A DNA stretch of 64,000 bases from Bacteroidetes bacterium RIFCSPLOWO2_12_FULL_35_15 (GTDB taxonomy: Bacteria; Bacteroidota; Bacteroidia; 2-12-FULL-35-15), in the NCBI GenBank assembly GCA_001769385.1, contig MEPB01000088.1, positions 1 to 64,000 of the forward strand, given 5' to 3'. Below the pieces are notes generated by a model. That model worked only from the letters and a program-made list of their open reading frames with translations, made no database searches and was not told the DNA's origin. The position numbers and the translations under genes were made by a program. The first letter of the stretch is position 1; the number at the start of each line of letters is the position of its first letter. Below, one piece after another: positions 255-50,934 of the stretch.

Positions 255-1790
255 TCAACTATTTTCTGCAACAAATTTATTGATCTTACTCATCAATTCT
301 TTTTGACCAACAATTTCTGAACAAGTTACTACTGCACTTACAGTTACGCCCAAAACACCATGAAGATTAAGGTTTTGGCCGGTTAAGAATAAATTAGGAA
401 CTTTTGTTTTAGGCGTGATAAATGTTTTTAAAATATCACGATAATCTTTTTCGACACCATACATGGTACCATCCCTGCTACCAATATAATCTCGGTATGT
501 AAGCGGTGTAGAAGTATATACCGATTTGATCTTGTCTTTTAATCCCGGCATTCGTGCTTCAATGATGTTTATTAAACGCTCTGACCTGTCTTTTTTAAAT
601 GCCTCATACGCTTCGCCCCTATTATCTTCAATATTAGGAATAACATGTTTTGTATCCTCCCATTGCTTCACTTCATCATAATGCATATAGGCCATAGCAA
701 TTAACCCATTGGTATATTCCAGATTTTTGGATGATGCCTGTGGAAAAAGTGCAAATCCATGGGGCCAGTTATCCGGCTGATAGTTAATGCCATCCCACAC
801 ATTATCATCATGATGGTGATAAATATTATGATTGAAATACTTCATAGTATTTTCCTTCAGGACAATAAACAACATGAAGGATGAAATAGAATTTTTAAGA
901 CTATTTATTCGATTTCGATATGCTGCACGGATCTTACCGGGCTCCACCATATCAAGCGTTTTAGAAATATCGAAATTGGATATAAAATACTTGCCTTCAA
1001 TTATTTTTCCATTTGTTAATTCTACACTTTTAATAAGACTTTCTTCAAAATGAAATTTAGAAGCTTCGCTATAATTAAAAATTTCACCTCCCATTTTCCG
1101 GATAGATTCAGAAAGATGTTTTGCAATTTGTGCACCTCCATCAATACATTTCCATGAACTTTCGATATAGGTGTTTACAACAAGAGCATGCACATAAAGC
1201 GGTGTTTTGCCGGCAGCACCGGCATATAAAGGGTTTGTTCCGGCCAGTACATTCTGTAATTTCACATTGGATGTTACACTTTCAATATATGCTTTTGTAT
1301 CAACAGATAAAAAATCGGCCATAACCAGATCTTTTCTTTCTTCACTTAAATTATACAATGGAAAGAAGGCGCATATTTCACGGATCTTATCACAATATTT
1401 TACAAGATTTTCTTTTTCCTCAGGAAACTGTTCACTTAAAACACGAATAAAATTATCGTAGCCCTGAGCATGTTTATAAACTACCGGATCGCCTCTGAAT
1501 GTAATATGATCAAAGCCGTCCATATCCATTTGCTTTAATTTTATTTTATCCATCAACCCTAAATATTTAAAATAACTATTCAGGTTTTGTCCTTCAGAAA
1601 GCCCACCAATGTAATGTATCCCGGTATCAAAAAGTACTTTGTCTCTCGAAAATATTTGAAGACTTCCGCCTAACTGACGATTTTTTTCCAGGATACAAAC
1701 TTTATATCCTTCTTTCGCGAGAATATAACCACATGACAATCCACCCATACCACTACCCAGAATAACTACATCGTATTTCTTACTTTCCAT
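255..1790 (-). CDS. FAD-dependent phytoene-desaturase/retinol-saturase-like oxidoreductase
   Basis: This 511-residue protein begins with a Rossmann FAD-binding motif (VVILGSGMGG, Gly12-Gly17) followed by an acidic strand end (CILEKN). Near the C terminus it has the second FAD contact typical of the CrtI/RetSat superfamily (FLTGQNLNLHGVLGV, about 470-485). Length and layout match the all-trans-retinol 13,14-reductase-like enzymes that occur in flexirubin loci. It is the last gene of the long minus-strand pigment locus, 91 bases after the exporter fusion. The likely role is oxidation or reduction of the polyene chain or its aryl end. The exact substrate cannot be read from sequence. Confidence 0.85.
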   Translation of the reverse strand: MESKKYDVVILGSGMGGLSCGYILAKEGYKVCILEKNRQLGGSLQIFSRDKVLFDTGIHYIGGLSEGQNLNSYFKYLGLMDKIKLKQMDMDGFDHITFRGDPVVYKHAQGYDNFIRVLSEQFPEEKENLVKYCDKIREICAFFPLYNLSEERKDLVMADFLSVDTKAYIESVTSNVKLQNVLAGTNPLYAGAAGKTPLYVHALVVNTYIESSWKCIDGGAQIAKHLSESIRKMGGEIFNYSEASKFHFEESLIKSVELTNGKIIEGKYFISNFDISKTLDMVEPGKIRAAYRNRINSLKNSISSFMLFIVLKENTMKYFNHNIYHHHDDNVWDGINYQPDNWPHGFALFPQASSKNLEYTNGLIAMAYMHYDEVKQWEDTKHVIPNIEDNRGEAYEAFKKDRSERLINIIEARMPGLKDKIKSVYTSTPLTYRDYIGSRDGTMYGVEKDYRDILKTFITPKTKVPNLFLTGQNLNLHGVLGVTVSAVVTCSEIVGQKELMSKINKFVAENS

Positions 1791-1881: not shown

Positions 1882-4800
1882 CTACATCTTATTTTTCTTC
1901 GGAACATTTCGAATTATAAATATTATGTTGGAAGTTAATTTTGTATTATCAACTATTTCATACTCCAGGAAGGGAAATGTATCAAGTGTATTTTTTATTA
2001 ATGTTGCTGAGGCAAAATGTAAGCCTCCTTCTTTGGTTTTATTGAAGCCTGAATTTGTCGAGAAAAATTCAGTATAACGTGTTCCCATGTGACGTTTTTT
2101 TTTATCTGCATCAGCATCCCTGATGATCATAACGCCATTTTCTTTCAGTTTATTTGCGCACCTGGAGATCAGCTCAATTTGCATATCCTCACTTAAATAA
2201 TGAAGCACATCACTGATAATAAATGCATCAGCAAAACCATATTCATATTGAGTAACATCTGCACAAACAAAATTTACTTTATCCGATTTTGAAATGCAAT
2301 TTGCTGCAATGTCAATTTTTTCCTCATCATAATCTATTCCCAGTATCTCACGGTCTTTACCCATGAAACTTAACATTAGAGGTAAAAAACCATAGCCGCA
2401 ACCTACATCAACAATCTTCCCATGCTTGGGCAAATAACTTTCGAACAATTTATAATTGCCTTCCATCTTTACTTTAATGCGGCAATACCACTCCAGAACA
2501 GGGCCCTTAAAAATATAATTTTTTATCAATCGTGGTCTGAAATAATCAACCGTTTCTTGTTCCTGACGTAATAACTCATACTCATAACGCATCATCTCAC
2601 AGGTATTTTTTGCGCGTTCTTTATAGGTTGTACCCAATGTTTTATCATCAGGTTTTATCCGAGGCAAATATTTCACTGTTAAACTTCCTTCTTTAAAATG
2701 GAAATCTCCTTTGGTAACACAATCACCGGCACCATGTAATAACCAAGGTTGAATATCAGCATTCAATTGTTCTGCGAGATAAAAAGCACCTTTGTGAAAA
2801 CGAAGAATGTCGCCTGTTGTGGAACGTGTTCCTTCCGGAAAGATCAACGCTGAATAACCTTCCTGCATTAATGCTTTTACTTTTTCTATGGCAGCTTCAT
2901 AACCCTGTGAAGCCGGATAAAAATCAGCCATTTTTACAATTCGTCCATAAAAAATTGAGTTCCAGACCCAATCATTTGTAAATACAATTATTTTTGGATT
3001 CAACATTAAAGTAAGCGCCAGATCAATGTGAGATTGGTGATTACAAATGATTATTGCCGGCTTTTCAAATTTCTCATTTTGTGGATTAATGATCTTTTTT
3101 CTGACATTTACAAACATATAGATCATAAACTTGCAGATATACATGATCAGGTAATGGAAAATTAATTTCCGTGTTTTTTTAGGAGCAGGAAATATTGTAA
3201 ACAGTATAAATCCGGCTAGCGTTAAAAATATACTTCCGAATATAAAAAATAAAAATCCGAAAAAAGTAATAATTAAATTAAACCCGGTATATGGTAAAAG
3301 ATTTCTTTTTTTACGATTTAGAATTAAGAAATTATAAAATAAAGGCTGAACAATAAATGAAATGAAGAGAACGGTTGTCATACCAATTATTGTAATGATA
3401 GCGATGGATCTAAGGGCAGGATGTTGTGCAAAGATCAACACACCGATTCCAATAATTGTTGTGGCAGCAGAAAGGAAAATGGATGTTTTATAAGAATCTA
3501 AATTTTTTCGTCCATACTTATATTCCTGTGCCAAACCATCCATAATAAATATTCCGTAATCATCCCCTAAACCAAAAATGAAAGTGGAAATGATAATATT
3601 TATAATATTAAATTTCAATCCTAGTATGCCCATTATTCCCAATATCCATAACCATCCGATGAACATTGGTAAAAAATTAATAAACACCAGTTCAAATCGC
3701 CCGTGTGACAAAAGCATAAATCCAAATACAAGTAATCCGGTGATAATAAGTATTAAATTAAAATCGGAGGTAATGATGTCCACAAATTGAGTTGACATAT
3801 ATTGTTTATCAAAAACAACGACAGAATTATTAGTTGAGAAGGCATCATACACAACAGATTTTTTGTTGGGGTCAACCTTAACGATGCTTACAACTGTTGT
3901 AACATTTTTATTTTCTGTGACCCAATCATTCACAACTAACTTCTTTAGCGTATCTAGTTCAGATAATGCCACAGGTTTAAAATTGGTATTCAGCAGATCG
4001 TAGAATGGAGAAAATGCGTCTGCTTTAAATTTATATTCGCTGCTGTAGCGTATCAGGCGGTTTTGTAAAGAATCTTTTTTTTCTGCTGTCCAAAAGGAAT
4101 TCCATCGATCAATGCGTACTTTTTGCAAAGAGTCAGAAATCAGTAATGTACTAACTGTCGAAAATTTATTAATTAATTTTTCTTCTTTTAGATTATTAAG
4201 TTTTTCAGTAGCAACCTCATTTGCTTTTAATGCCTCATTCAGATCTTTTCCTTTCGAAACTATGTAAACCGAACGTAAAGAATAATTATTGATCTTATCC
4301 AGATGTTGTTGTGCCTTAATAAGCGCATCACTTTGATAATTAATTTTCAACATGTCGCTTTCGAAACTGACATTAGTAGCAGTAAATGCGAAAACAATTG
4401 TTAAAATAAATGTGGCGATCAGGATTGGTTTGTTCTTATCAAAACGATAAGAAACTATTCTTCCAAGAAATGATATTTTAGGAGTAACCGCTTCTTCAGT
4501 CTCCTCTCCTTTTCTGTGTTTTAATAAATGTGGCAACACAATTATTGAAAATAAAACCGCACCAATTAAACTAAAACCGGCAAACAAACCAAAATCATGT
4601 AAGGCTTGCGACTTTGCAAACTGCAAACTTAAAAATGCTCCAACAGTGGTGGTGCAACCAATAAGCATTGGAAAGGATAGATCGGTGATTACTTTTTCAA
4701 TGGAGCGTTCATGTTTAAAATGAGTAAAAAAGTGCAGCGAATAATTGATGGCAATTCCAAGAACGATGGAACCTGCACCAATAGCAATGGCAGAAATTTC

Positions 4801-5754
4801 TTCTTTTATAAAATATAAAAGTGTTAATGAAAATAATGCACCAAATGCAACAGGAAGTAAAATATAAAATATGATAAGCAGTCTTCTGAAAAACAAGCCT
4901 AATAACACGACAATAAAAACTAACGCGATCAAAGATGTGTAAATAGAATCGTGTCTGATTTGCTTTGCATTACCGAGTGCCACAGCAGCAGCTCCATAAT
5001 ATTCAATTGTTACTTTATTATTAAATTTTGCATTTAGCGACTTAATAATTTCATTCAGGGAATCAAAGAATATTTTTGACCTGTCGTTATCCGTTGTAGA
5101 AACGGATGATGAAATAAACATCATTAAATTTTTCTTATCACGGGTCATGATATAACCTTCATGTACATCAAAATTTTCATCAAACTTCAGATTCTGTAAT
5201 TTTTTTAATGCAAGTGGAGTAAGGTTGATCGGATCCTTTTTGATGAATTTACTAAACACCATACTGGAAGGAGAAAGGAGGGTTTTGTAATCGCTGTTAA
5301 TGATATTTTTTAAACTATCCGGCTGCAAAAATCCTTCGATGGTAGGATAATCATTTTCCTCCAAGAAGATCGGTAGATTATTATAAAATGTGCCATACAG
5401 GCGCATTATCAGATCATCAGAAATTTTATACGAAAGTTCTTTAATATACCCGGAACTTTTTGATGAATTTAATGAATCGGCCAGCATATCGGCACATTGC
5501 ATCAGGTCAGCAGTCTCCGTATTTGTGGTATCGGTATTAAATATGTTTATTACAAGTTTATCCTTGATCTTAATATTATTCAGGACAAAATTTATTTCAT
5601 CGATCTTTTTATCCTTCGGAATAAATTTATTAATGTCTTCTTCTAACTTAATTTTCGTACCAAAATAAATGGTAGAACCAAATGCAAGTAAAACAAGTAC
5701 CAACAAAAGTATCCGGTGACGCTTAAAAAATTTATATAAACCTAATGTTGACAT
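1882..5754 (-). CDS. MMPL/RND exporter fused to a PlsC-type acyltransferase and a methyltransferase
   Basis: This very large protein (1290 residues) joins three modules. Residues 1 to about 860 form an MMPL/RND-type exporter: one N-terminal membrane helix, a periplasmic loop, a helix bundle near 268-420, a second loop, and a second bundle near 668-860 with FGLGDDYGIF around 735. Residues about 895-1070 are a 1-acylglycerol-phosphate-type acyltransferase with NHQSHID (HX4D, about 905) and FPEGTRS (about 971). Residues about 1110-1285 are a class I SAM methyltransferase with VDVGCGYG (about 1115). It starts one base after the preceding gene in a tight operon. Inferred role: export or acylation of the pigment precursor to the outer membrane plus a methylation. 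Exporter and acyltransferase proteins are usual in aryl-polyene loci; a triple fusion is less common. Confidence 0.88.
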   Translation of the reverse strand: MSTLGLYKFFKRHRILLLVLVLLAFGSTIYFGTKIKLEEDINKFIPKDKKIDEINFVLNNIKIKDKLVINIFNTDTTNTETADLMQCADMLADSLNSSKSSGYIKELSYKISDDLIMRLYGTFYNNLPIFLEENDYPTIEGFLQPDSLKNIINSDYKTLLSPSSMVFSKFIKKDPINLTPLALKKLQNLKFDENFDVHEGYIMTRDKKNLMMFISSSVSTTDNDRSKIFFDSLNEIIKSLNAKFNNKVTIEYYGAAAVALGNAKQIRHDSIYTSLIALVFIVVLLGLFFRRLLIIFYILLPVAFGALFSLTLLYFIKEEISAIAIGAGSIVLGIAINYSLHFFTHFKHERSIEKVITDLSFPMLIGCTTTVGAFLSLQFAKSQALHDFGLFAGFSLIGAVLFSIIVLPHLLKHRKGEETEEAVTPKISFLGRIVSYRFDKNKPILIATFILTIVFAFTATNVSFESDMLKINYQSDALIKAQQHLDKINNYSLRSVYIVSKGKDLNEALKANEVATEKLNNLKEEKLINKFSTVSTLLISDSLQKVRIDRWNSFWTAEKKDSLQNRLIRYSSEYKFKADAFSPFYDLLNTNFKPVALSELDTLKKLVVNDWVTENKNVTTVVSIVKVDPNKKSVVYDAFSTNNSVVVFDKQYMSTQFVDIITSDFNLILIITGLLVFGFMLLSHGRFELVFINFLPMFIGWLWILGIMGILGLKFNIINIIISTFIFGLGDDYGIFIMDGLAQEYKYGRKNLDSYKTSIFLSAATTIIGIGVLIFAQHPALRSIAIITIIGMTTVLFISFIVQPLFYNFLILNRKKRNLLPYTGFNLIITFFGFLFFIFGSIFLTLAGFILFTIFPAPKKTRKLIFHYLIMYICKFMIYMFVNVRKKIINPQNEKFEKPAIIICNHQSHIDLALTLMLNPKIIVFTNDWVWNSIFYGRIVKMADFYPASQGYEAAIEKVKALMQEGYSALIFPEGTRSTTGDILRFHKGAFYLAEQLNADIQPWLLHGAGDCVTKGDFHFKEGSLTVKYLPRIKPDDKTLGTTYKERAKNTCEMMRYEYELLRQEQETVDYFRPRLIKNYIFKGPVLEWYCRIKVKMEGNYKLFESYLPKHGKIVDVGCGYGFLPLMLSFMGKDREILGIDYDEEKIDIAANCISKSDKVNFVCADVTQYEYGFADAFIISDVLHYLSEDMQIELISRCANKLKENGVMIIRDADADKKKRHMGTRYTEFFSTNSGFNKTKEGGLHFASATLIKNTLDTFPFLEYEIVDNTKLTSNIIFIIRNVPKKNKM

Positions 5755-5755
5755 A

Positions 5756-6955
5756 CTATTTATATCCTGAAGTTGCGTGTGATTTATTTCTGATCAATTT
5801 TAAAATGACATAGGTAACAATTCCCATAAATATAGAAAATACTACTGCAAGTACACTTGCTCCCATCAAATAAACATACAAATTTGATTTAATATTCTCC
5901 ATATCAATATTGTTTATAGTGATAGAAGATTTAATACCTGTAACCAATTCTCCGGACTTTAAACTTGCATAAAGGATAAATGGAAGCAATATGGGAATAC
6001 TGATATTTGCAGCAACAATTACAATGGCCTTATTAAGTTTTAAAATGTATGCAAAAGCTATTGCGGTGACCAACTGGTAACCCCAGATTGGGATTATGCC
6101 AAAAAATATTCCAATGGCAACCGAAATCGACTTTTTAATGATCGACTCTTCTTTATTAAAAAAATTGTCCTGAATAAATAGTTTAAAGTTTGCAATCGTC
6201 AGGCTTCTAATAAACCGCAATGGTCGATACCATAAAAAAGCAAGAATAACAAGGTATATATTTAAAAAACTGATGCGTGTCGAATCCCGTGATGGTTTAA
6301 AATGAGTAACCCGCTCCTCCCCTTTTGCATAATATACCTGAACAGGAATATAAAGAACAGGGATTCTGTTCCAGGCCGCTTTTACAATTACTTCTATTTC
6401 AAATTCAAAACGGGAAGTAAAGTACCTGATCCTTTTCATTCGCTCGATTGGATAGAGACGATATCCTGATTGGGTATCCGGTAAAGAAATACCGGTTTCA
6501 ACCATAAACCAAAAATTAGAAAATTTATTCCCGAAACTACTTCCACCGGGTACATTATCAGAATTCATATTGCGTGCACCGATGATCAATGAATCCGGCA
6601 TTTCTTCAATCTTATCTAAAAATAATTCAAGATCACCCGGAAAATGCTGACCATCACTATCAATTGATATCGCATAACGATAATTTAATTCCCGGGCTTT
6701 TTTAAATGCAGTACGCAAAGCCATTCCTTTTCCTAAATTTTTTGGTTGATGAATAACAGTGATACGATCTTCAAAAGATTTTAAAATTGCAGGAGTTGAA
6801 TCGGTGGATCCATCATTTATAACAATGATCTTATCCGTATATGCTAAGGTATCAGATATAACTTTTTCAATAGTTTTGTGATTGTTGTAGGTAGGAATTA
6901 TCACACAACAATTTAATTCTGTAAAGCGTTTATTTAATTTGGGGTGGTTAGACAT
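5756..6955 (-). CDS. Family 2 glycosyltransferase with C-terminal DUF2062 membrane domain
   Basis: The N-terminal half is a GT-A glycosyltransferase: the start IPTYNNHKTI, the nucleotide-binding DGSTD (48-52) and the metal-binding DSDGQH (99-104). The C-terminal part (about 265-385) has several hydrophobic helices typical of DUF2062 (IGIFFGIIPIWGYQ). GT2-DUF2062 fusions are frequent in aryl-polyene and flexirubin loci. The gene lies two bases from the dehydratase gene and one base from the exporter fusion, so it is co-transcribed. It probably attaches a sugar or phospho-sugar to the lipid-like pigment precursor; donor and acceptor are unknown. Confidence 0.88.
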   Translation of the reverse strand: MSNHPKLNKRFTELNCCVIIPTYNNHKTIEKVISDTLAYTDKIIVINDGSTDSTPAILKSFEDRITVIHQPKNLGKGMALRTAFKKARELNYRYAISIDSDGQHFPGDLELFLDKIEEMPDSLIIGARNMNSDNVPGGSSFGNKFSNFWFMVETGISLPDTQSGYRLYPIERMKRIRYFTSRFEFEIEVIVKAAWNRIPVLYIPVQVYYAKGEERVTHFKPSRDSTRISFLNIYLVILAFLWYRPLRFIRSLTIANFKLFIQDNFFNKEESIIKKSISVAIGIFFGIIPIWGYQLVTAIAFAYILKLNKAIVIVAANISIPILLPFILYASLKSGELVTGIKSSITINNIDMENIKSNLYVYLMGASVLAVVFSIFMGIVTYVILKLIRNKSHATSGYK

Positions 6956-6957
6956 TG

Positions 6958-7344
6958 CTACTGGACTATCTTAAATTTCCCTTTAAACTTAGTAAAGCTA
7001 TTACCCCTATTCGTATAATTTGCTGAAACATCCAGTGTATCATCAACCTGTTTTACAGTAAAATCAATTTGAAAATCTTTTATTTCATTCGGATTGATCA
7101 CTGCAACAAATTTGATATTGTTTCCTTCTGTGAGAAGCAATTTCTTTTTAATCTTTTCAACTAAAATATCTTTAATCGTTTGTATTAATAAAACTCCGGG
7201 AGCGATTGAAATATTTGGAAAATGTCCGGCATACACTTTATGTTTCGGGTTCAATTCAATTATACTGCTAAACGTTTCAGGATGCTCAGGAGAATAGGTT
7301 GATGAAATTTCTGTGTAAAATTTTTCAGATAGTTGTTCAGTCAT
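6958..7344 (-). CDS. Hotdog 3-hydroxyacyl-ACP dehydratase, His-only half site (FabZ/ApeI-like)
   Basis: A 128-residue single hotdog domain. It retains the FabZ helix motif GHFPNISIAPGVLLIQ with the catalytic His41, but the acidic partner expected 14 residues later (Glu in FabZ) is Gln55. The second dehydratase of this locus (17169-17627) has the opposite pattern, a Glu without the His. Because FabZ active sites form across the dimer interface, the two proteins may work as a heterodimer that dehydrates the growing polyene. It is the first gene of a four-gene block preceded by a 245-base gap with a palindrome. Confidence 0.8.
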   Translation of the reverse strand: MTEQLSEKFYTEISSTYSPEHPETFSSIIELNPKHKVYAGHFPNISIAPGVLLIQTIKDILVEKIKKKLLLTEGNNIKFVAVINPNEIKDFQIDFTVKQVDDTLDVSANYTNRGNSFTKFKGKFKIVQ

Positions 7345-7589: not shown

Positions 7590-8234
7590 TCATTCTTTTG
7601 AAATATTATTTAATTCTATTTTAAGATGAATTATTCCTTTATGTTTCAATTTTATTTGTTGCGCATTCAAACTATCATTATAAATATAGTTTACTTTTTC
7701 CTTTTTAAATAAACGGCCTTTTACAATAGTGCGATCAACTGTTTTTGAAGCTTTATTAACGAAATAGTAATTTTTAAAATTCCCATTCCGTACTTCATAA
7801 ACAGATTTATTTTCTTTCTCAAAGATCCTTGCTTCCTTATTTATAAGACTCTGCAACAGAATTAATTTCATATCACTTTCAAGAACCCGTAAGATCTTTG
7901 GTTGATTTAATGGTTCGAAAACATAGATCAGTTTGAACTCATTATTTTTTATTTCAAAATCAAACATTTTCATTCCCAACTCTGTTACAAAAACTAAATG
8001 AGCCGTACTGGGATCCATTTGTTTTAGCACGATCAACCCACCATAATATTTGTTATATAAATTTATTTTTGCTTTATATAACAATGAATTGTCTTTGTTT
8101 ATTATCGGCTTAACATGAGCACTTGTAACTACTTCAACCCTACTCAATTTATAACCTTGTGTAGGAGAGCAGCCAAAAAAAAGGGCAATAAACAAACTAC
8201 TTAAGCATAAATTTTTCAATTGCAATCGTACCAT
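7590..8234 (-). CDS. Lipoprotein of the pigment locus, function unknown
   Basis: A 214-residue protein with a short N-terminal hydrophobic stretch ending in a lipobox (ALFFGC, Cys22), so it is likely a lipid-anchored envelope protein. No catalytic motif is recognised. The start overlaps the upstream LolA-like gene by 38 bases, and there is no later Met that would keep the signal peptide. Lipoprotein/LolA pairs recur in aryl-polyene loci, so a part in moving the pigment to the outer membrane is inferred from context only. Confidence 0.75.
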   Translation of the reverse strand: MVRLQLKNLCLSSLFIALFFGCSPTQGYKLSRVEVVTSAHVKPIINKDNSLLYKAKINLYNKYYGGLIVLKQMDPSTAHLVFVTELGMKMFDFEIKNNEFKLIYVFEPLNQPKILRVLESDMKLILLQSLINKEARIFEKENKSVYEVRNGNFKNYYFVNKASKTVDRTIVKGRLFKKEKVNYIYNDSLNAQQIKLKHKGIIHLKIELNNISKE

Positions 8235-8835
8235 TTAATTTTTTATTACTAAAATCAAGTGTTGTAATATCATCACTGGGTTCCAGCATTTCTAACTTTA
8301 CAACAGATGTAACATTTTTATCAAAATACATGTTTATCTTTTTCAAGCTCTCCTTCATTCCTTTCATGGCAGGTATCAATTCCAGTTTGTAATACGTATC
8401 GTTCTCAAAAAAAGAAATTTTGAATTTATTCGACTTTAAAATGTCTCCATTCACGCAAGAAATCATAATGTCATTTATCTCCTTGAAAACCTTATTGGAA
8501 TTCATATCGTATTTTTTTAACTTGTTTTCATCTTTGATAAAGATCTTATCCTGGTTAATAACAATGATATATTTATAGGGCGAGGTATATTCCCACCGTA
8601 AATTATTTTTTTTCTGAAAATAAAAATGGCCTTTGCTTGTGATCTTTTCTGACAACATGCTTAGATCTTTCACCTGTGTAAAATCGCTTTCGATGCTATT
8701 TGTCACCTTCGACATATTATCGATCTTCGCTTTAAGTGAAACAGTATCCTTCACAGGTTTAAAAACAGATTGTGCCGAAACAAATGACGAACAAATTATC
8801 AAACTAATGAGTACTATGAAATTACGAATATGCAT
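8197..8835 (-). CDS. LolA-like outer membrane lipoprotein carrier
   Basis: A Sec signal peptide (about 1-21, ending FVSAQ) precedes a LolA-type fold. Recognisable features are SIESDFTQVKDLSML, GHFYFQKKNNLRWEYTSP and a run of beta strands with VINQDKIFI, all typical of LolA (F.Q......G.....P...RW.Y..P). The 212-residue length fits. It overlaps both neighbours (14 bases upstream, 38 downstream), so translation is probably coupled. In this locus it may be a periplasmic carrier for the lipid-like flexirubin instead of the housekeeping LolA. Confidence 0.85.
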   Translation of the reverse strand: MHIRNFIVLISLIICSSFVSAQSVFKPVKDTVSLKAKIDNMSKVTNSIESDFTQVKDLSMLSEKITSKGHFYFQKKNNLRWEYTSPYKYIIVINQDKIFIKDENKLKKYDMNSNKVFKEINDIMISCVNGDILKSNKFKISFFENDTYYKLELIPAMKGMKESLKKINMYFDKNVTSVVKLEMLEPSDDITTLDFSNKKLNGTIAIEKFMLK

Positions 8836-9595
8836 TTTTTTGAATTAATTTATCTAAGGGTATTACAGTATAATTTTTTTCTTTTAAGTAATTTAAAACA
8901 TCTTCCAAAACAAGATCTATTCCATCAACGGTATCATGAAACAAGATGATCGAACCCGGCTTAATTCTTTGTTTAACACGTTGAAGCAACTGCTCTTTAT
9001 TTTTTATTGATGTATCCAGCGAACGCACATTCCAACCAATAACATCAAATTTCAAATGCCGGCAAGCTTTTGCCAAACCGGGAGTTGTTACTCCATAAGG
9101 TGGACGAAAGAACAAAGGAGTTTTTCCAATCACTCTTTGAATCTCGTTATTTCCATATTGCAGATCTGAGATCAATTGTTTGGAACTCATCAGATCGAAA
9201 AAAAAAGAATGAGAAAAACTATGATTACCCATCAAATGCCCTTCATTATCCATTTTCAATAAAAGTGATTCATTGCCTTTAATTCTGTTACCAATTAAAA
9301 AAAATGTTGCTTTGGCATTAAATTTTTTTAAAACGGTCAATACTTTTTCTGTTCGTATCGGCATTGGGCCATCATCAAAACTCAGTGCCACACTATTCTC
9401 ATTTGTATTTACCTCACAAATTGCTTCGATATGAAATCCGGAATTAACAAAATATGCGCCATAAAATTCAATGCTAAAAAAGGCGACCAAAGGAATTAAA
9501 TAGAGCATCCAATGAAAAGTATAACTATAATTTAAACTTATCAGAAGTATAAAAATTAATGTAAAAACGATAACTATGTTTCGGTGATTTAACAT
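8822..9595 (-). CDS. Membrane-anchored polysaccharide deacetylase (NodB-homology domain)
   Basis: Two hydrophobic segments (about 7-23 and 28-50) anchor the protein. The NodB domain shows all usual motifs: SFDDGP (Asp74, Asp75), the metal-binding HSFSH (His125, His129), RPPYG (164-168), a W-containing motif (DVIGWNVRSLDT) and the terminal LFHD. All metal ligands appear intact, so a de-N-acetylase or other carbohydrate-esterase activity is likely. Its product is not evident from flexirubin structure; it may trim a glycosylated carrier. It overlaps the CLF-like gene by seven bases and the LolA gene by 14. Confidence 0.87.
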   Translation of the reverse strand: MLNHRNIVIVFTLIFILLISLNYSYTFHWMLYLIPLVAFFSIEFYGAYFVNSGFHIEAICEVNTNENSVALSFDDGPMPIRTEKVLTVLKKFNAKATFFLIGNRIKGNESLLLKMDNEGHLMGNHSFSHSFFFDLMSSKQLISDLQYGNNEIQRVIGKTPLFFRPPYGVTTPGLAKACRHLKFDVIGWNVRSLDTSIKNKEQLLQRVKQRIKPGSIILFHDTVDGIDLVLEDVLNYLKEKNYTVIPLDKLIQKNAYS

Positions 9596-17630: not shown

Positions 17631-18776
17631 TTAAACAACTGTCAATAAAGCATTACCATATGAAAAACGAGCACTTTCGGGAACTGATAACATGATCTTT
17701 TGTCCTTTTTTCAATTTTCCTGATTCCATTAATTCTTTCAATGCCAGAAAAATAGAAGCAGATCCAATGTTACCTACACTTGTTAAATTTACAAACCATT
17801 TTTCCTGAGGCAGATCAACACCACTGTTTCTCATTGCATCATCTACTCTTGAACGAAAATATTCTGAAGAAATATGAGGAAGGAACCAATCTACATCTTT
17901 TGGATCGAGATTGTGTTTTTTTAATAATTCAATGTATTTTATTGTTCCTAATTTATTGATATATTTTTCCAATAACCGCGGATCCTGTTTCATTGCAAAA
18001 ATAGATTTTTCGATCCATTCTTTCGGCTCAAACTCATTCCAACCATGTATATTTCCTTCCGCATCTTTGTCAGAACCTGCATACATACAAGTCTCCACTT
18101 CATTTGCAAAGGAGCATATATCAATTCCTTCAATTTTCAAAGAAACTCCATCAGGGTTTGGAGTGTTTGATAAAAGAACTGCTGCCGCACCATCAGAAAG
18201 CATCCAACGCAAAAAATCTTTTTCAAATGCTATCAGAGGATCTGCTTCTAACTCTTTTAATTTTTGCGCTTCTTCCTCAAATTTTTGACTGATCATCCAG
18301 GTCGATAATTTTTCGGAACCTGAAGTTACAGCATTGTTTGTATTACCTGTTAAAATAGACATGTATGAATATTTCAATGCATTCATACTGGTGCAACAGG
18401 CCCCTGAAAATGTTATTGTTTCCACAGGGCGGGATTTTAATAATCCGTGAACCATCACACCATGTGCAGGAATAATTTGGTCAGGTGATGCAGTACCACA
18501 TGTTAAAAGTTCAATATCATCTAATTTAAAATCCGTTGTGCATAGGGCACGAATTGCTTCAGCTGCCAGTTCTGCATTTGAATGCGTGCTTTTCCCGTTT
18601 TTATCAATGGAGTAATATCGGGTTGTAATTTTATTATTGCGTAATACAATGGCTTTGGAGCGCGATTTTTTACCATCAACACATCCTAAGTAATCTTCAA
18701 TTTCATCATTACTAACAGGCTTTCCGGGTAAAAATTTTGAAATACGGTTTATGTAAACAGCTTTATTCATATTCAT
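17631..18776 (-). CDS. darB: KAS III-like ketosynthase DarB (dialkylresorcinol pathway)
   Basis: A 381-residue FabH-fold protein. The nucleophile lies in FSGACCTSMNAL (Cys127, next to a second Cys), the catalytic His in FLPHISSEY and the Asn in LTSVGNIGSAS. DarB condenses a beta-ketoacyl thioester with an enoyl thioester to a cyclohexanedione, which is then aromatised by DarA to the 2,5-dialkylresorcinol half of flexirubin. It follows DarA by 134 bases and precedes the dehydratase by three. A Met at residue 3 is an equally possible start. Confidence 0.92.
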   Translation of the reverse strand: MNMNKAVYINRISKFLPGKPVSNDEIEDYLGCVDGKKSRSKAIVLRNNKITTRYYSIDKNGKSTHSNAELAAEAIRALCTTDFKLDDIELLTCGTASPDQIIPAHGVMVHGLLKSRPVETITFSGACCTSMNALKYSYMSILTGNTNNAVTSGSEKLSTWMISQKFEEEAQKLKELEADPLIAFEKDFLRWMLSDGAAAVLLSNTPNPDGVSLKIEGIDICSFANEVETCMYAGSDKDAEGNIHGWNEFEPKEWIEKSIFAMKQDPRLLEKYINKLGTIKYIELLKKHNLDPKDVDWFLPHISSEYFRSRVDDAMRNSGVDLPQEKWFVNLTSVGNIGSASIFLALKELMESGKLKKGQKIMLSVPESARFSYGNALLTVV

Positions 18777-22837: not shown

Positions 22838-23746
22838 TTATTCTTCCGCCCAGAAATCATAAAAATTAAACCATTGTGTCGGATATCTTTTTAACATCTC
22901 TTCTACCTCCTTCACATAATTATCCGAAATCTCAGCAACTATCTTTTCAACTTCCTTTTCTCCTCTCGCACGTTTCGGTTCAATTGGTTTTTTAGCAAAA
23001 AAATGATAATGTGAATTCGTTTCTTTGACTGCAAAAACAACAGTTATGGGTACGCCAAATTTTGCAGCCATAATAAAAGGGCCGACAGGGAACTTCGCTT
23101 TCTTTCCCATAAAAGTTTTTTCGATCGTTGGAGCACCGGGCCGAAAACGATCGCCATGCATTACTACCCATTCGTTATTACTAAATGCTTTGTGAAGCTC
23201 CACTAAATGCCCCATATCATTATCTTTAATACCAATGATATTGAAATTTTTCTTTTTCATCACATCATCCATGTATTCCCTCATCTTCGTAATATCATTA
23301 TCATACATTAACACATTAAATTTTGTATCAAGTATTTCAAGCATTTGTCCGGCTATTTCCCAATTACCAATGTGTGCACTTAGTAATATCCCGCCTTTTC
23401 CAAGATCTTTCAGATATTTTAAATTCTCCTTTTGGCCTTCATGTTCGATAGTAAATTTATTTCGCATTCCTGCTAAAATGGCTGTTTTATCAAGTAATGT
23501 TTGTCCGAAAATATAATAATTTTGATAACAGGCCCGATAAGCTTTCCATTTTGAATAGCCCATAATATCTTTGAAAAAGCGTAAAGATGTTTTGGTAGAT
23601 TTGGCAGTTATTAAAAAGTAGAAAGCCACAAATCGTAAAACAAAATATGCGATCTGCAGCCCAAAAAATTCAAGTATAAAAACAAAAAATTTATGTCCTA
23701 TAACGCTCCCTTTCGTTTTACCTTCCCACTTGCTGTTACCGGACAT
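22838..23746 (-). CDS. LpxL/HtrB-type lipid acyltransferase
   Basis: A 302-residue protein of the lauroyl/myristoyl acyltransferase (LABLAT) family: an N-terminal hydrophobic helix (about 20-48) and the catalytic motif LSAHIGNWEIAG with His125 and Glu130 (HX4E). LpxL-like acyltransferases are regular members of aryl-polyene loci, where they transfer an ACP-bound acyl chain to a lipid acceptor. It follows the second ACP by four bases, so this ACP may be its donor. Confidence 0.88.
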   Translation of the reverse strand: MSGNSKWEGKTKGSVIGHKFFVFILEFFGLQIAYFVLRFVAFYFLITAKSTKTSLRFFKDIMGYSKWKAYRACYQNYYIFGQTLLDKTAILAGMRNKFTIEHEGQKENLKYLKDLGKGGILLSAHIGNWEIAGQMLEILDTKFNVLMYDNDITKMREYMDDVMKKKNFNIIGIKDNDMGHLVELHKAFSNNEWVVMHGDRFRPGAPTIEKTFMGKKAKFPVGPFIMAAKFGVPITVVFAVKETNSHYHFFAKKPIEPKRARGEKEVEKIVAEISDNYVKEVEEMLKRYPTQWFNFYDFWAEE

Positions 23747-26189: not shown

Positions 26190-27257
26190 ATGAACTTTTT
26201 CTCAAAAGACACAAAAACAGCACTTCAGGCAAAAGAATATGCCCAATGGATAGCTTTTGCACCAATGGTTTTTCAAGCTACCAGAGCCTTACGCGATTTT
26301 GAAATTTTATCAGCAGTGCATCAGTCCGGTAAAAAAGGTATTACAATCGAAGATGTATGTGAAAAATTGAAATTTCCTTATTATGGCGCAAGAGTATTGA
26401 TGGAAGCCGGATTAGGAATTGGATTATTGATCGTTAACGATGATAAATATACCTTAACAAAAACAGGTTATGTTATTTTAACTGACCAGCTAACCCGTGT
26501 GAATCTGGATTTTTCGCATGATGTTTGTTATGAGGGTTTATTTGCTTTGGACAAATCCATTCTGAATGGAAAGCCCGAAGGATTAAAAGTTTTTGGTACC
26601 TGGAAAACTGTTTATGAAGCACTAGCTCATCTGAACCCCCAGGTACAAAAAAGTTGGTTCGCTTTCGATCATTATTATTCTGATGATTCGTTCCCAGAAG
26701 TTTTACCACATGTATATAAAAATAAGCCTAAAAAATTATTGGACATTGGGGGGAATACCGGGAAATGGGCTATTGCAAGTACAAAACACGATGCTGATGT
26801 TCATGTTACGATTATGGATCTCCCTGGACAAACTGATATGGCAAAAAAGAATATTGATGCCTTAGGATTATCAAACAGGGTTGATTTTTATCAGACGAAT
26901 ATTTTAGATGAATCGCTTCCTTTTCCAAAAGGATTTGATGCTATCTGGATGAGCCAGTTTTTAGATTGTTTCTCTGATTCAGAGATCATATCGATCCTTA
27001 CCCGTTGTAATAAAGCATTGAATGATAATGGTTCTGTATACATCTTAGAGCCATTCTGGGACAATCAACGCTTTGAAGCCGCTGCATTTAGTTTACAAAT
27101 GACCTCTTTATATTTTACCGCTATAGCGAACGGAAACAGCCAAATGTATAATTCTTCCATTTTCATTAAATTGGTTGAGAAATCAGGTTTTGTTGTTGAT
27201 GAAATTATCCCGGGTGTTGGAGTTTCTCACACCTTATTAAAGTGCAGGAAAAAATAA
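26190..27257 (+). CDS. SAM-dependent methyltransferase of the O-methyltransferase type
   Basis: A 355-residue protein with an N-terminal helical/winged-helix part (about 10-110: GITIEDVCEKLKFPYYGARV, typical of O-methyltransferase dimerisation domains) and a Rossmann SAM domain with LLDIGGNTGKW (183-193), the acidic MDLPGQ and the post-II motif GFDAIWMSQFLDCF. It is transcribed divergently from the pigment operon. Flexirubins can carry ring methylation, so a tailoring role is plausible; this is inference from position. A hairpin terminator follows at 27281-27320. Confidence 0.85.
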   Translation: MNFFSKDTKTALQAKEYAQWIAFAPMVFQATRALRDFEILSAVHQSGKKGITIEDVCEKLKFPYYGARVLMEAGLGIGLLIVNDDKYTLTKTGYVILTDQLTRVNLDFSHDVCYEGLFALDKSILNGKPEGLKVFGTWKTVYEALAHLNPQVQKSWFAFDHYYSDDSFPEVLPHVYKNKPKKLLDIGGNTGKWAIASTKHDADVHVTIMDLPGQTDMAKKNIDALGLSNRVDFYQTNILDESLPFPKGFDAIWMSQFLDCFSDSEIISILTRCNKALNDNGSVYILEPFWDNQRFEAAAFSLQMTSLYFTAIANGNSQMYNSSIFIKLVEKSGFVVDEIIPGVGVSHTLLKCRKK

Positions 27258-28596: not shown

Positions 28597-29892
28597 TCAT
28601 CTTTGCGCCTTTGCGTCTTCGCGGCAAAAATTCAAAAACTCTTCTATCGCATCATAAATAATTTGCAAATCTTTATTGCTGATACAATACGGAGGAAGAA
28701 CGTACAAAACATTTCCCAATGGACGAAGTATTATTCCCCGCGAAATAAAAAACCCGGAAATAATTTCGGATAATGAATTTAAATAATTTGTTTCCTCCTT
28801 CGTTTTTATTTCAAAAGCAATAATAGTTCCTAATTGCCGAACATCAATTAATGCTTTATGTGATCTTATTTTTTGTAAAAATAAATTATGTTGTTGTTCT
28901 ATTCGTTCAATGTTTTCAAATGCTTCCGGCTTATCAAAGAGATCCATACTTGCCAATGCAGCTGAGCAGGCAGTTGGGTTTGCAGTGTAAGAATGACCAT
29001 GAAAAAAAGTTTTCATCTTATCGTCACTCAAAAAAGCCTCATAAATAAATTGAGCACAGCTAGTTACGCCTAAAGGCATTACTCCTCCTGTTAATCCTTT
29101 GCTCAAGCATATAATATCCGCTTTATGCATCAAATGATCACTTGCAAAAAACTTACCGGTGCGACCAAAACCTGTCATCACCTCATCGGCAATTGTTATC
29201 ACATTTTTATCCTTACAGATTTTAATTAACCCGTCCAATGCTTTGGCAGAATACATTACCATTCCACCTGCACCTTGTACCATTGGCTCAAAAATAAATG
29301 CAGCAATATCATCGTGTTTCAAGGCATCATTCAAAGCGTTCAATGTATTCTGCTCTTTTCCTGATATCGGAACAGGAATATGAATGACATCAAACAATAA
29401 TTTTGAAAATGGAAGATTGAAAGCATTACGGGCTCCAACACTCATGCCACCAAAGGTATCTCCATGATATCCATTTTCGAATGCAATTACTTTTGTTTTA
29501 TTTATCGATTGGTTGCTCCAATACTGGAAAGCCATTTTTAAAGCCACCTCCACAGCTGTTGAACCATTATCAGAGTAAAATATTTTTGATTGGTTTGCCG
29601 GAAGTCGCTTCAATAATCGTTCAGCTAATTGAACAGCCGGCTCATGTGTGAAGCCTGAAAAAATAGCATGTTCCAACGTTTGTAATTGTTCTGAAATTTT
29701 TTGTGATAAATAGGGATGACAATGTCCGTGCACATTTACCCACCATGATGCAATCCCATCAATATATCGTTTGCCTTTTTCATCATAAAAATAAGCCCCA
29801 TCGCCTCTGACAATTGAAATTGGTAATGGAGCTGTTTTGATTTGTGTGAATGGATGCCAGACAACTTTTTTATCGCGTTCTTGTAATGTCAT
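28597..29892 (-). CDS. bioA: Adenosylmethionine-8-amino-7-oxononanoate aminotransferase
   Basis: A 431-residue class III PLP aminotransferase of biotin synthesis. It starts with the substrate-site motif VWHPFTQIKTAP. It also has DGIASWWVNVHGH, FSDNGS-like (YSDNGSTAVEVALKMA), the PLP-lysine region LSKGLTGG and HGHSYTANP. It converts KAPA to DAPA using SAM as amino donor. It is the last bio gene, 334 bases after bioD. The final residues (CREDAKAQR) are encoded by a CTTTGCG-rich repeat, so the extreme C terminus may be an acquired extension. Confidence 0.95.
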   Translation of the reverse strand: MTLQERDKKVVWHPFTQIKTAPLPISIVRGDGAYFYDEKGKRYIDGIASWWVNVHGHCHPYLSQKISEQLQTLEHAIFSGFTHEPAVQLAERLLKRLPANQSKIFYSDNGSTAVEVALKMAFQYWSNQSINKTKVIAFENGYHGDTFGGMSVGARNAFNLPFSKLLFDVIHIPVPISGKEQNTLNALNDALKHDDIAAFIFEPMVQGAGGMVMYSAKALDGLIKICKDKNVITIADEVMTGFGRTGKFFASDHLMHKADIICLSKGLTGGVMPLGVTSCAQFIYEAFLSDDKMKTFFHGHSYTANPTACSAALASMDLFDKPEAFENIERIEQQHNLFLQKIRSHKALIDVRQLGTIIAFEIKTKEETNYLNSLSEIISGFFISRGIILRPLGNVLYVLPPYCISNKDLQIIYDAIEEFLNFCREDAKAQR

Positions 29893-30226
29893 AATTAATT
29901 ATTGATTAAACTTTGCCGCATGCACTTTCTCGACTCCGCTTGAAACGCCCTGACGGTATTTTACGTTGCCTTGTTGAGTTTGTCGATGTGTGCTGGTTCC
30001 ACACACACCGACAAACTCAGTGTGATCTTCCCACCTCGCCCTTCTGCATTTTTTAATGACAGCATGGAAGGAAAGGAACTTTTTAGTATTACAAATGGGA
30101 TATGCATCCACAAAGATTTATTTTTTTAGAAAATCAATTGAATCGAAATAATTAAAAATCCCATCAAAAATATACATTTTAATGGGATTAAATAATTTCA
30201 AATTATCAGAAATATTCCTGCTAAAA
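29893..30226. other. 334-base gap between bioA and bioD with repeat copies, no gene
   Basis: The gap holds a partial copy of the CTTTCTCGACTCCGCT palindrome family (about 29926-29945) and the inverted repeat at 29975-30019. A short frame at 29899-30111 spans these repeats and has no recognisable protein character. No promoter for bioA was identified. Confidence 0.7.
29975..30019. repeat. Inverted repeat of the GAGTTTGTCGA family
   Basis: TGAGTTTGTCGATGTGTG (29975-29992) and CACACACCGACAAACTCA (30002-30019) pair at 17 of 18 positions around a 9-base loop. It is the third copy of the element at 7424 and 22663, here with an extended stem. Confidence 0.75.
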
Positions 30227-30847
30227 TTAAGTGTTTTTCAGAAACTCAAACTCCTTGGCATATCGCGAAATTACTTCCGGATTTATTTCGCTTTCTTTTT
30301 GAATGCGTCCGAGTAATTTTAATTGACTGTATTCCATAATAATATCATACGATAATTGATGTGGAGGGCCATTAAAAATTACCCCCAAAATATTAAATCC
30401 TCTCTTTTTTATGGCATCAATTGATAAAAGTGAATGGTTGATGCTTCCCAAATAATTTTGGATAACCAAAACTACTTCTGCATCAAATTTCCCGATCATA
30501 TCGATCATAAATTCTTTACGATTAAGAGGCACCATCAATCCTCCTGCTCCTTCAATTATTAATGTATTATCAGTCTGAGGGACCGAAATATTAGCTAACT
30601 CTATTTCCACACCTTCTAATTCAGCTGCTGCATGAGGCGACATATATTGTTTTAAAGTATATGCTTCCGGATGTATAACGCTATCGCTATTACTTATCCA
30701 CTTTTTTACTTTTGCAGTATCCGTAGAAAAAAAACTTCCCGTTTGAATTGGTTTCCAATAATCGGCCTTTAATGCCTCCACAAGTACAGCTGAAACTACT
30801 GTTTTACCAACATCAGTTCCTATTCCTGTAACAAATATTTTTCTCAT
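30227..30847 (-). CDS. bioD: Dethiobiotin synthetase
   Basis: A 206-residue P-loop enzyme: IFVTGIGTDVGKT (Walker A, conserved in BioD), WKPIQTGS with the substrate Lys, SPHAAAELEG and the switch-like motif IEGAGGLMVPL. It closes the ureido ring of DAPA with CO2 and ATP. The ATG at 30847 is used; an adjacent TTG adds one residue. It is 48 bases downstream of bioF in the same operon. Confidence 0.95.
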   Translation of the reverse strand: MRKIFVTGIGTDVGKTVVSAVLVEALKADYWKPIQTGSFFSTDTAKVKKWISNSDSVIHPEAYTLKQYMSPHAAAELEGVEIELANISVPQTDNTLIIEGAGGLMVPLNRKEFMIDMIGKFDAEVVLVIQNYLGSINHSLLSIDAIKKRGFNILGVIFNGPPHQLSYDIIMEYSQLKLLGRIQKESEINPEVISRYAKEFEFLKNT

Positions 30848-30895
30848 CAAGTTTTATGTATGGATTTTTTAACGAAATTATTATAATTAAGTTAC

Positions 30896-32044
30896 TTATT
30901 GAACATTTCTTTTAAAAATTTTCAAAAGTGAATTTATCAACTCATCCAATTCTTCTTTTGTATTGGAAGAATGAATGCAAATACGCAAGCGCTCTTTGCC
31001 TTTTGGAACTGTAGGACTCAAGATAGGCCGAACATCAAAATTTGACTTTTCAAGAAATTTTGAAATACGCTTAACTTCCCTATTTCCGCTAACAACAATA
31101 CATTGGATCGGACTATTACTTTCAATCAATGTAATGGTTGCATTTTTTGAAATCCGTCTTCTAAATTGTTCAATTAAGGAATTTAATTTTTTTATATCCG
31201 GGGAACTCGACTCCAGTAATAAATAAGCTTGATTTATTGTAACCAGACTTTTTACCGGTAAAGCAGTAGTATATATAAAAGATCGTGAAAAATTTATTAA
31301 GTAATTACGTAACATATCGCTACCAAGAACAATAGCACCATGGCAGCCAAGCGCTTTGCCAAATGTATGAACACGTGCAAAAATTTCCTTTTCTAATTTT
31401 AATTCCTGCACTCTTCCTCTTCCCTTATTACGAGTAATTCCGGTTGCATGTGCTTCGTCAACAATTAAATTTGCTTTGTATTTTTTACATATTAAAATGA
31501 CTTCTTTTAGCGGAGAATTATCACCATCCATGGAATAAACGGTTTCAATTGCTACATAAATTATACCTGTAGCTATTTTCAAACGTTCTTCTAAATGTTT
31601 TAAATCATTGTGACGAAACATAAATGCCGAAGCAGTAGATAGCTTCATCCCATCTCTCACTGAGGCATGTATCAACTCATCATAAATAATGGTATCCCCT
31701 TTTTTACCTAAAGCAGAAAACAATCCAAGATTTGCATCATAACCGGAGTTATAGATCAACCCACTTTCGGCATTGTGAAATGTGGCAATACGTTTTTCCA
31801 ATTGTTCAGCATATGCAAGGTTCCCTGTCAATAAACGAGAACCTGTTGAACCATTTTTTTGAAAGGGCAAGGAGGCAAATTCCTTAATGCTATTATTTTT
31901 TAATTTTTCGGAATGTGCGAAACCTAAATAATCATTACTGCAAAAATCAATCAAGTGATCTTTATTACTCAATTTACGCAGGGCATTTTGATCTTTTCTG
32001 TTTTGAAGGGATTTTTGTAAAAACGTATCAGCTGAAAAGTTCAT
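30896..32044 (-). CDS. bioF: 8-amino-7-oxononanoate synthase
   Basis: A 382-residue alpha-oxoamine synthase. Visible motifs are DFCSNDYLGFA, GSTGSRLLTGN, the cofactor-stacking DELIHASVRDG, VDEAHATG and the PLP Lys in HTFGKALGCHGA. It condenses pimeloyl thioester with alanine to KAPA. It lies five bases after the outer-membrane-like gene that separates it from bioB, and its product feeds BioA. Confidence 0.95.
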   Translation of the reverse strand: MNFSADTFLQKSLQNRKDQNALRKLSNKDHLIDFCSNDYLGFAHSEKLKNNSIKEFASLPFQKNGSTGSRLLTGNLAYAEQLEKRIATFHNAESGLIYNSGYDANLGLFSALGKKGDTIIYDELIHASVRDGMKLSTASAFMFRHNDLKHLEERLKIATGIIYVAIETVYSMDGDNSPLKEVILICKKYKANLIVDEAHATGITRNKGRGRVQELKLEKEIFARVHTFGKALGCHGAIVLGSDMLRNYLINFSRSFIYTTALPVKSLVTINQAYLLLESSSPDIKKLNSLIEQFRRRISKNATITLIESNSPIQCIVVSGNREVKRISKFLEKSNFDVRPILSPTVPKGKERLRICIHSSNTKEELDELINSLLKIFKRNVQ

Positions 32045-32049
32045 AGTAT

Positions 32050-32760
32050 CTATCTTTCTGAAACATCAATACGAACAGAACCTATTGCCATAAATGAAAA
32101 AATATTATGGCTTATTTTTGAAGCTTTTTCTATTGAATTATTATCAAAATATTTGTATTCGAAAAGCGGGTGAACACAAACAAAAACATGCGGGATTACT
32201 TTATAGGAAGCAAGAACACCTATTCCTGCAAAATAGGTATTGGACATTTTTTCTACACCGAAAAAATTTTCTCTATCAACACCGGAATAACCATAATAGC
32301 CAAATTGTCCTTGTGCAGCTAATGAGAAATTAGATCTTAACTCTTTACTAAAAGGGACTTCTACCAATGCGTAGATCTTATCGAAACGAAATTTTTGATC
32401 AAAAATAATAAGTCCCGCATCAGGATCCGGATTAAGAATTTCAATTTTATCCATGGTGTTCTCCTCAAAATTCAAACCCAGTCCAAGCATAATATCAGCA
32501 ACCGGGACCAAAACATTCAGATCGTAACAACGTAGATCGGTTTTTGTTTTAAATTTTAAGTTCCCTGATTTTATTGCCAAACCATATTGATCATATAAGG
32601 CGGTATTTTCCAACTTCGATTTCCAGTTTGAAAAACCAATACCATAACCCAAATTGATAAAAAAACTCTTGGTTTCACTTCCTGATCGGTTATAAAAATA
32701 TTGTGCAAAAAGGGATGAACTCGTGCAACATATTATTATAATGGAAAGAATTTTTCTCAC
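32050..32760 (-). CDS. Outer-membrane beta-barrel-like protein inside the bio operon
   Basis: A 236-residue protein with a signal peptide (RKILSIIIICCTSSSLFAQ) and alternating aromatic/polar strands (FFINLGYGIGFSNW, YALVEVPFSKELRSNFSLAA, YFAGIGVLASYKVI), as in small outer-membrane barrels. No specific family is recognised. It is 10 bases after bioB and five before bioF, so it is translated from the biotin transcript. A role in biotin-related uptake is only a guess from position. Confidence 0.75.
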   Translation of the reverse strand: MRKILSIIIICCTSSSLFAQYFYNRSGSETKSFFINLGYGIGFSNWKSKLENTALYDQYGLAIKSGNLKFKTKTDLRCYDLNVLVPVADIMLGLGLNFEENTMDKIEILNPDPDAGLIIFDQKFRFDKIYALVEVPFSKELRSNFSLAAQGQFGYYGYSGVDRENFFGVEKMSNTYFAGIGVLASYKVIPHVFVCVHPLFEYKYFDNNSIEKASKISHNIFSFMAIGSVRIDVSER

Positions 32761-32770
32761 TATTTCAAAT

Positions 32771-49727: not shown

Positions 49728-49863
49728 AATGGTTACTAATAAACGAATAATTACAAACTTACGAAAGAGTCACAAATTAGTAAATTAGTATCTATTGATT
49801 ATTAGTATCCAACCAGATTAGTAAATTAGTATTTGATTAGTTATTCGCAACTTTTGTAACCTT

Positions 49864-50769: not shown

Positions 50770-50820
50770 TTATTCAGGATCTTTAAAATTAAGAAAATGA
50801 TGTTATTTTTAAGCAAGGGT

Positions 50821-50887: not shown

Positions 50888-50934
50888 ATAAAAAAAAATT
50901 AAAAATTGAAACTACACATTTATAAACCAAAAAA

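Follow-up and report, generated by a model that had tools for sequence, protein, structure and literature searches.

Among the systems closest to the gene described here are the ape cluster of Escherichia coli CFT073 and the flx cluster (flxA–flxY) of Chitinophaga pinensis. In E. coli CFT073 the genes for the pump ApeM (c1191) and the acyltransferase ApeD (c1201) are separate. The available part of the E. coli study (PMC8253772) proposes anchoring of the polyene by ApeD and ApeJ and its export by ApeM, ApeL and ApeN, and names ApeB as the candidate for head-group methylation; part of the pigment was kept on deletion of apeD, and polyene metabolites were undetectable on deletion of apeM. The same part mentions a solved structure of the Xenorhabdus aryl-polyene lipids. 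The flx cluster is described in the accessible sections of PMC3992019 as a flexirubin cluster with a deacetylase, an acyltransferase, LolA, a glycosyltransferase and an exporter assigned to export. Schoner et al. give the export role to flxP–flxU and ester formation to FlxW as proposals, and place the one methionine-derived methyl of the C. pinensis flexirubin on the polyene ring (section 7). An acyltransferase and an exporter are named in those sections; a three-part fusion is not described in them. In the extract available of PMC3949708, an Azoarcus table lists exporter, acyltransferase and methyltransferase as separate genes. Within the accessible parts of these papers, anchoring and outer-membrane transport of aryl polyenes and flexirubins are more proposed than tested, and a fusion indicates which activities go together. 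Here, we describe such a fusion in a stretch of 64 000 nucleotides from Bacteroidetes bacterium RIFCSPLOWO2_12_FULL_35_15 (contig MEPB01000088.1, positions 1–64 000; hereafter the window), in which a single gene encodes a pump, an acyltransferase and a methyltransferase.

Profile matches and predicted structures identify module 1 as a predicted ApeM-type RND pump, module 2 as a predicted ApeD-type PlsC-fold acyltransferase and module 3 as a predicted class I methyltransferase. The protein is probably the inner-membrane exporter belonging to a cluster for flexirubin (an aryl polyene–dialkylresorcinol), in which module 2 acylates, module 1 exports, LolA2 and LolB2 carry the product on and module 3 is accessory. 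Its features are as follows.

1882..5754, minus strand: three-module flexirubin-cluster exporter (1290-residue open reading frame, Pfam domains, homologues)
3307..5754, minus strand: module 1, RND/MMPL pump, residues 1–816, ApeM counterpart (Pfam MMPL, ApeM profile match, AlphaFold2 model)
2545..3294, minus strand: module 2, PlsC-fold lysophospholipid-type acyltransferase, residues 821–1070, ApeD counterpart (PF01553, ApeD profile, PlsC structure)
3022..3039, minus strand: HX4D catalytic motif, His906–Asp911 (homologue alignment)
2824..2841, minus strand: FPEGTR motif, residues 972–977 (homologue alignment)
1885..2502, minus strand: module 3, class I S-adenosylmethionine (SAM)-dependent methyltransferase, residues 1085–1290 (PF13649/PF08241, AlphaFold2 fold)
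2389..2409, minus strand: SAM motif I, DVGCGYG, residues 1116–1122 (homologue alignment)

The frame at 1882–5754 has 1290 codons, an ATG start and no internal stop; the plus strand across the same positions is riddled with stops. The modules follow in the order MMPL/RND pump, acyltransferase, class I methyltransferase, each above its Pfam cut-off. The original prediction, which gave no strand, had described a single intact three-module frame of 1290 residues, and the reading frame, the Pfam domains and homologues along the full span bear this out. Its motifs were located as N-H906-QSHI-D911 (HX4D), FPEGTR (972–977) and VDVGCGYG (1115–1122). A chance origin of the frame is excluded, because homologues spanning all modules at 35–94% identity occur in 29 other genomes. 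The genome itself carries one copy, its three further matches all being weak and partial. The AlphaFold models contain 12 membrane helices (by our own count), followed by a PlsC-type two-helix segment and two well formed enzyme domains. DNA repeats within the gene were unremarkable, and a search of a viral fold library with the protein added nothing. Against the NCBIfam models every match was below the curated cut-off, so that the protein is a member of none of the named families matched.

The three-module architecture is already known and not new, since many relatives share it and RefSeq names such a protein. The `trifunctional MMPL family transporter/lysophospholipid acyltransferase/class I SAM-dependent methyltransferase' (WP_264793640.1; NZ_AP026868.1, plasmid pAUEa of Aureispira anguillae) has the same modules in the same order and aligns with 99% query coverage at 42.5% identity. 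It has the motifs of module 2 and of module 3. So does the window protein, a single frame with the same module order and both sets of motifs intact. A Persicobacter plasmid homologue (32.6% identity) also has the motifs and differs in its RefSeq name, 1-acyl-sn-glycerol-3-phosphate acyltransferase. The three-module gene is thus plasmid-borne in L157 and L158 (Aureispira and Persicobacter), the Persicobacter copy lying within an aryl-polyene-type cluster. Literature searches for flexirubin, MMPL, acyltransferase and methyltransferase together, or for `trifunctional MMPL', returned no description of the fusion.

Homologues were collected in three ways. The first set came from a search of 59 genomes (the window's own and 58 relatives); its 30 best matches are near full length throughout, with the identities quoted above for those outside the window's own genome. 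In a scan of named genomes the best 80 of at least 541 confirmed relatives (L034–L113) were taken, a selection that favours full-length proteins; all 80 span the query except L053 and L054, which are cut at contig ends. These 80 carry the same architecture, and one of them is from Chitinophaga filiformis, the species that yielded the original flexirubin (PMC3992019, accessible part). Finally, 395 genomes of the phylum were surveyed and 57 of them had a match: 31 with module 2, two with the pump alone and 24 in which the match was to another pump or acyltransferase and only partial. After identical sequences had been collapsed, 124 different homologues remained. Profile A1 was made from the fused proteins, A2 from 54/62 usable loci and A3 from 36 loci; L106 was omitted from one model alignment owing to unread residues. 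A free-standing copy of module 2 (252 residues, 40% identity, L058 at about 6211–6966), about 3 kb upstream of a complete three-module gene, was excluded from the counts.

For module 1, Pfam MMPL (PF03176) matches residues 201–411 with 37.9 bits against a gathering cut-off of 20.5. Asp732 is conserved in 124/124 different homologues. The pump model (AlphaFold2, residues 6–882) has a predicted local distance difference test score (pLDDT) of 81.1, and its nearest solved structure is HpnN, followed by MmpL3, MmpL4 and MmpL5; the RND lipid-transporter fold is common to these best structural matches and module 1. The likeness to the HpnN family is one of fold only, the scores being far under TIGR03480 (104.6 against 751.85 bits) and NF052374 (76.7 against 1100). 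Eighteen ape proteins of E. coli CFT073 served as targets for profiles of the three modules. Among these, the module 1 profile singles out ApeM (133.5 bits) and the module 2 profile singles out ApeD (83.1 bits); that of module 3 finds nothing past superfamily level (ApeB, 11.8 bits).

For module 2, Pfam Acyltransferase (PF01553) matches residues 891–1004 with 66.6 bits (cut-off 23). In the 122 homologues with module 2 the His of HX4D is present in 121 (one unread), and its Asp in 120, with Glu in two; Pro, Glu and Arg of FPEGTR are present in 122/122 and Gly in 114/122. The model of residues 818–1290 has a mean pLDDT of 87.7. Module 2 superposes on PlsC of Thermotoga maritima (5kym) with a Z score of 26.2 and a root-mean-square deviation of 2.8 over 240/241 residues, the two N-terminal helices included. 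Score, motifs and fold with the two-helix element thus place it among PlsC-type lysophospholipid acyltransferases; with TIGR00530 (1-acylglycerol-3-phosphate acyltransferase) it scores 61.3 bits, below the curated cut-off of 102.95. An acyltransferase that carries the PlsC two-helix element in a pump-fused protein fits acylation at the inner leaflet beside the pump.

For module 3, Pfam Methyltransf_25 matches residues 1114–1207 with 46.5 bits (cut-off 27), and the module has the Rossmann fold and SAM motif I of class I SAM-dependent methyltransferases, folds of this class filling rows 2–50 of the structure list (Z from 19.9 to 17.6). No substrate could be read from the structure list, as its nearly tied rows take in aryl C-methyltransferases, phosphoethanolamine N-methyltransferases and UbiG alike. 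Sequence profiles tend towards phosphoethanolamine N-methyltransferases (2.4 × 10^-11 at best), but the alignments shown span the SAM-binding core alone and this assignment was dropped.

D1116, G1118, C1119, G1120 and G1122 of SAM motif I are present in 97/97 different long homologues, and D1116 and G1120 in 0/24 short ones. Among the 31 survey homologues with module 2, module 3 is intact in six, of the short form (about 1220–1244 residues) in 24, which come from two families, and truncated at 1160 residues in one (genome G449). The short-form remnant is still related to methyltransferases (hhalign probability 97.0) and has conserved residues of its own (H1116, D1120, G1122, Q1123 and D1125 in 23–24 of 24), of which G1122 is common to the long form. 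In the short forms module 3 is less conserved than either of the other two modules, and the long form shows the reverse; at 50–65% pump identity its core identity is 47% in short and 67% in long forms. Two proteins consist of the pump only (G173, 812 residues; G402, 829 residues). In the stretches read of their clusters the module 2 profile gave no further match, the contig of G402 ending inside the cluster. In a tree of 63 representatives the pump-only proteins nest in fused groups and four changes account for all states, so that the fusion looks older than the losses of modules. The tree was calculated with FastTree only and rooted at the midpoint, and L145, L146, L148 and L033 are long branches in it, as are the pump-only rows. 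Module 3 is not needed everywhere, several related lineages having lost it or kept it in an inactive form. This repeated decay, with a remnant that has its own conserved motif, is the point of interest; the rest of the finding is ordinary in kind. The dead, truncated and absent modules are ready predictions for domain knockouts, and the decay pattern merits a test at the bench.

The genes around the exporter assign it to a flexirubin cluster. DarB, LolA2_flexi and LolB2_flexi score above their curated cut-offs, all within about 13 kb upstream of it; further cluster genes encode ketosynthases, an acyl carrier protein, a thioesterase, a glycosyltransferase and a polysaccharide deacetylase. The neighbours used below are the following.

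255..1790, minus strand: CrtI/carotenoid-isomerase-like flavin adenine dinucleotide (FAD) protein, directly downstream of the exporter (scores below curated cut-offs)
5756..6955, minus strand: family 2 glycosyltransferase (GT2) with DUF2062, counterpart of the N-terminal half of ApeJ (Pfam; BLASTP to ApeJ 8–230, 28%, 2.8e-30)
7590..8234, minus strand: LolB2_flexi (NF053540, 118.9 bits, cut-off 60)
8197..8835, minus strand: LolA2_flexi (NF053544, 217.8 bits, cut-off 125)
8822..9595, minus strand: polysaccharide deacetylase (PF01522)
17631..18776, minus strand: DarB, dialkylresorcinol synthesis (NF053539, 582.8 bits, cut-off 550)
22838..23746, minus strand: HtrB-type acyltransferase, counterpart of the C-terminal half of ApeJ (PF03279; BLASTP to ApeJ 247–549, 26%, 5.7e-31)
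26190..27257, plus strand: FlxJ/ApeB-type methyltransferase, the second methyltransferase of the cluster (NF053543, 529.9 bits, slightly below the cut-off of 560; 47% identity to ApeB)

The GT2 gene ends one base upstream of the exporter start. Neighbours in the window match E. coli ApeJ (both halves), ApeL, ApeB, ApeK, ApeO, ApeR and ApeQ. ApeJ (c1194) is one protein in E. coli and is split in the window into the genes at 5756–6955 and 22838–23746; ApeB (c1203) corresponds to the gene at 26190–27257, and E. coli has no counterpart of module 3. At the level of sequence, then, the fusions are reshuffled between the two clusters: ApeM and ApeD are joined here, ApeJ is split here and there is one extra methyltransferase. 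Module 3 was also tried as the ApeB/FlxJ counterpart and rejected, given its 11.8 bits with ApeB and the absence of NF053543 from the whole-protein matches; the gene at 26190–27257 fits instead. By its name, the FlxJ of NCBIfam would be the C. pinensis protein.

On these data, module 2 would work at the cytoplasmic face, where a membrane-lipid acceptor would receive an acyl chain from it, the aryl-polyenoyl group being the most likely one. The finished lipid would enter the pump of module 1 and be released to the LolA2/LolB2 pair on its way to the outer membrane; the fusion may hold acylation and pumping together, and module 3 may provide an accessory, lineage-specific methylation. The original prediction had the substrate acylated and methylated at the inner leaflet and then handed to the pump. 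Its acylation step and the hand-over are plausible, the two-helix element fitting acylation at the inner leaflet and the ApeM and ApeD matches fitting the proposal in the available part of PMC8253772, whereas methylation of the exported substrate by module 3 is not supported. The SAM residues are gone in 24/24 short forms and one further protein is truncated, and 24 of these 25 genomes with a dead or truncated module 3 retain a DarB match; the separate FlxJ-type gene at 26190–27257 and the single methyl of the C. pinensis flexirubin point the same way.

Several observations weigh against the assignment as a flexirubin exporter. Module 1 is under the curated cut-offs of named RND families (HAE3, 135.4 against 351.9 bits; HpnN as given above). 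LolB2 (7590..8234) has no match to E. coli ApeN by BLASTP at E 0.01. The DarB matches of G074 and G293, two of the 30 in genomes with module 2, are below the curated cut-off; G449 keeps module 2 and its DarB search gave no match; and no DarB lies on the plasmids that bear the Aureispira and Persicobacter clusters, the chromosomes of both not having been searched. With no DarB match in G449 or on either plasmid, the acceptor and the type of pigment may differ from case to case. An intact module 3 occurs without any FlxJ-type gene at E 1e-50 in eight relatives that are at least 90% complete.

DarB bears on the acceptor of module 2. With a match threshold of E 1e-80 and counts uncorrected for kinship, 30 of the 31 survey genomes that have module 2 gave a DarB match, 28 above the curated cut-off, and neither pump-only genome did. 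Four survey genomes have a DarB match without an exporter homologue. DarB is above the cut-off in 30/34 matching genomes; among the control genomes 2/14 match, none above the cut-off. Module 2 might thus be the flexirubin ester synthase, joining the aryl-polyenoyl chain to the dialkylresorcinol, with the pump exporting finished flexirubin. The two pump-only genomes, G173 and G402, which lack a DarB match, sit on separate branches, and the stretches read of their clusters hold no second candidate for module 2. Two losses are few, though, and E. coli makes aryl polyenes with a separate ApeD, no dialkylresorcinol step being named in the available part of PMC8253772; FlxW is the ester-forming candidate of Schoner et al. 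(PMC3992019, accessible sections); and a strict rule that module 2 needs DarB fails in G449. The ester synthase is unlikely in our judgement. No dialkylresorcinol gene is annotated in the E. coli CFT073 stretch that was fetched. The DarB link leans somewhat to a resorcinol acceptor and, by analogy, the use of ApeD in E. coli would lean to a lipid anchor. Xenorhabdus aryl-polyene lipids reportedly (Grammbitter et al.) have a galactosamine-phosphate-glycerol anchor.

FlxJ-type genes bear on module 3. Their threshold in relatives was E 1e-50. In the survey a match accompanies an intact module 3 in 6/6 genomes and a dead one in 2/24 (Fisher p 5e-5, uncorrected for kinship); it is also found in G449 and G173, and not in G402. 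Most of these matches are below the curated cut-off (above it in 2/395 and 0/32 genomes), and one of 14 control genomes matches. Among 31 long-form relatives the gene is present in 20 and absent in 11, eight of these being the relatives at least 90% complete mentioned above, so that a strict rule that module 3 needs FlxJ was discarded. If the pigment resembles that of C. pinensis, with its one methionine-derived methyl, then at least one of the two methyltransferases here has another target or both are redundant. The ring methyl more likely comes from the separate FlxJ/ApeB-type enzyme where this is present. In the eight relatives without a FlxJ-type gene, module 3 is therefore a possible ring methyltransferase. 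As a general role, implied by the earlier scheme, module 3 would be the flexirubin ring C-methyltransferase, with FlxJ redundant or otherwise engaged; the eight relatives speak for it, and the tied fold matches include the aryl C-methyltransferases CouO and NovO (Z 18.1). It is the gene at 26190–27257, however, that is 47% identical to the head-group candidate ApeB, module 3 being its kin at superfamily level only, and the E. coli cluster manages without module 3; we regard this role as rather improbable. More speculatively still, and with little confidence, the target of module 3 may be the lipid anchor (an amine exposed by the cluster deacetylase, for instance) and not the pigment ring, and the short forms may have retained the dead fold, with its own motif, for a new and non-catalytic role in the exporter.

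The original prediction made its case depend on whether the parts are normally independent, and the answer is divided. They are separate in E. coli and, in the extract of PMC3949708, in Azoarcus; in Bacteroidota they are fused, all three parts being present in 30 of the 33 survey homologues with dead parts counted. The fusion might mainly secure co-expression and stoichiometry, with no substrate passing from enzyme to pump. E. coli works with ApeM and ApeD apart, and in some genomes modules 2 and 3 have decayed or gone, from the C-terminal end, while the pump remains. Retention of the fusion at that frequency, with the dead remnant of module 3 still attached in 24 proteins, argues the other way, and we doubt this explanation. 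Hand-over from enzyme to pump is plausible and may be direct.

A CrtI-like gene occupies the matching position in L146, L148, L154, L156 and, by eye, L147, as a tandem pair in L148 (5407–6915 and 6919–8427); there was no match within the stretch L145. The window begins at the first base of the contig, so the view beyond this gene ends there. FAD proteins of the tryptophan-halogenase family (PF04820), possibly for ring chlorination, lie in or near aryl-polyene clusters at L155:14700–15950, L151:5492–6718 and L157:10821–12074. In L157 and L158 a protein annotated as a C45 peptidase is encoded close downstream of the exporter; in the genome of the window an AAT/C45-type protein (PF03417) is found on contig C78 (L162:7917–9614), ahead of a reading frame that resembles an acyltransferase by eye. 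Outside the window, the same genome has two PF00221 aromatic-amino-acid-lyase genes (C2:8389–9762 and C3:4966–6384), either of which may encode a histidine lyase or the tyrosine ammonia-lyase with which flexirubin synthesis begins. Adjoining the pigment cluster, positions 28597–33784 hold what we take, by eye, to be the biotin-synthesis genes bioA, bioD, bioF and bioB. A complex-I/hydrogenase-4-like gene set occupies 45688–55442 and includes tandem frames of 665 and 681 residues, the first of which is a proton-pump-type subunit by search.

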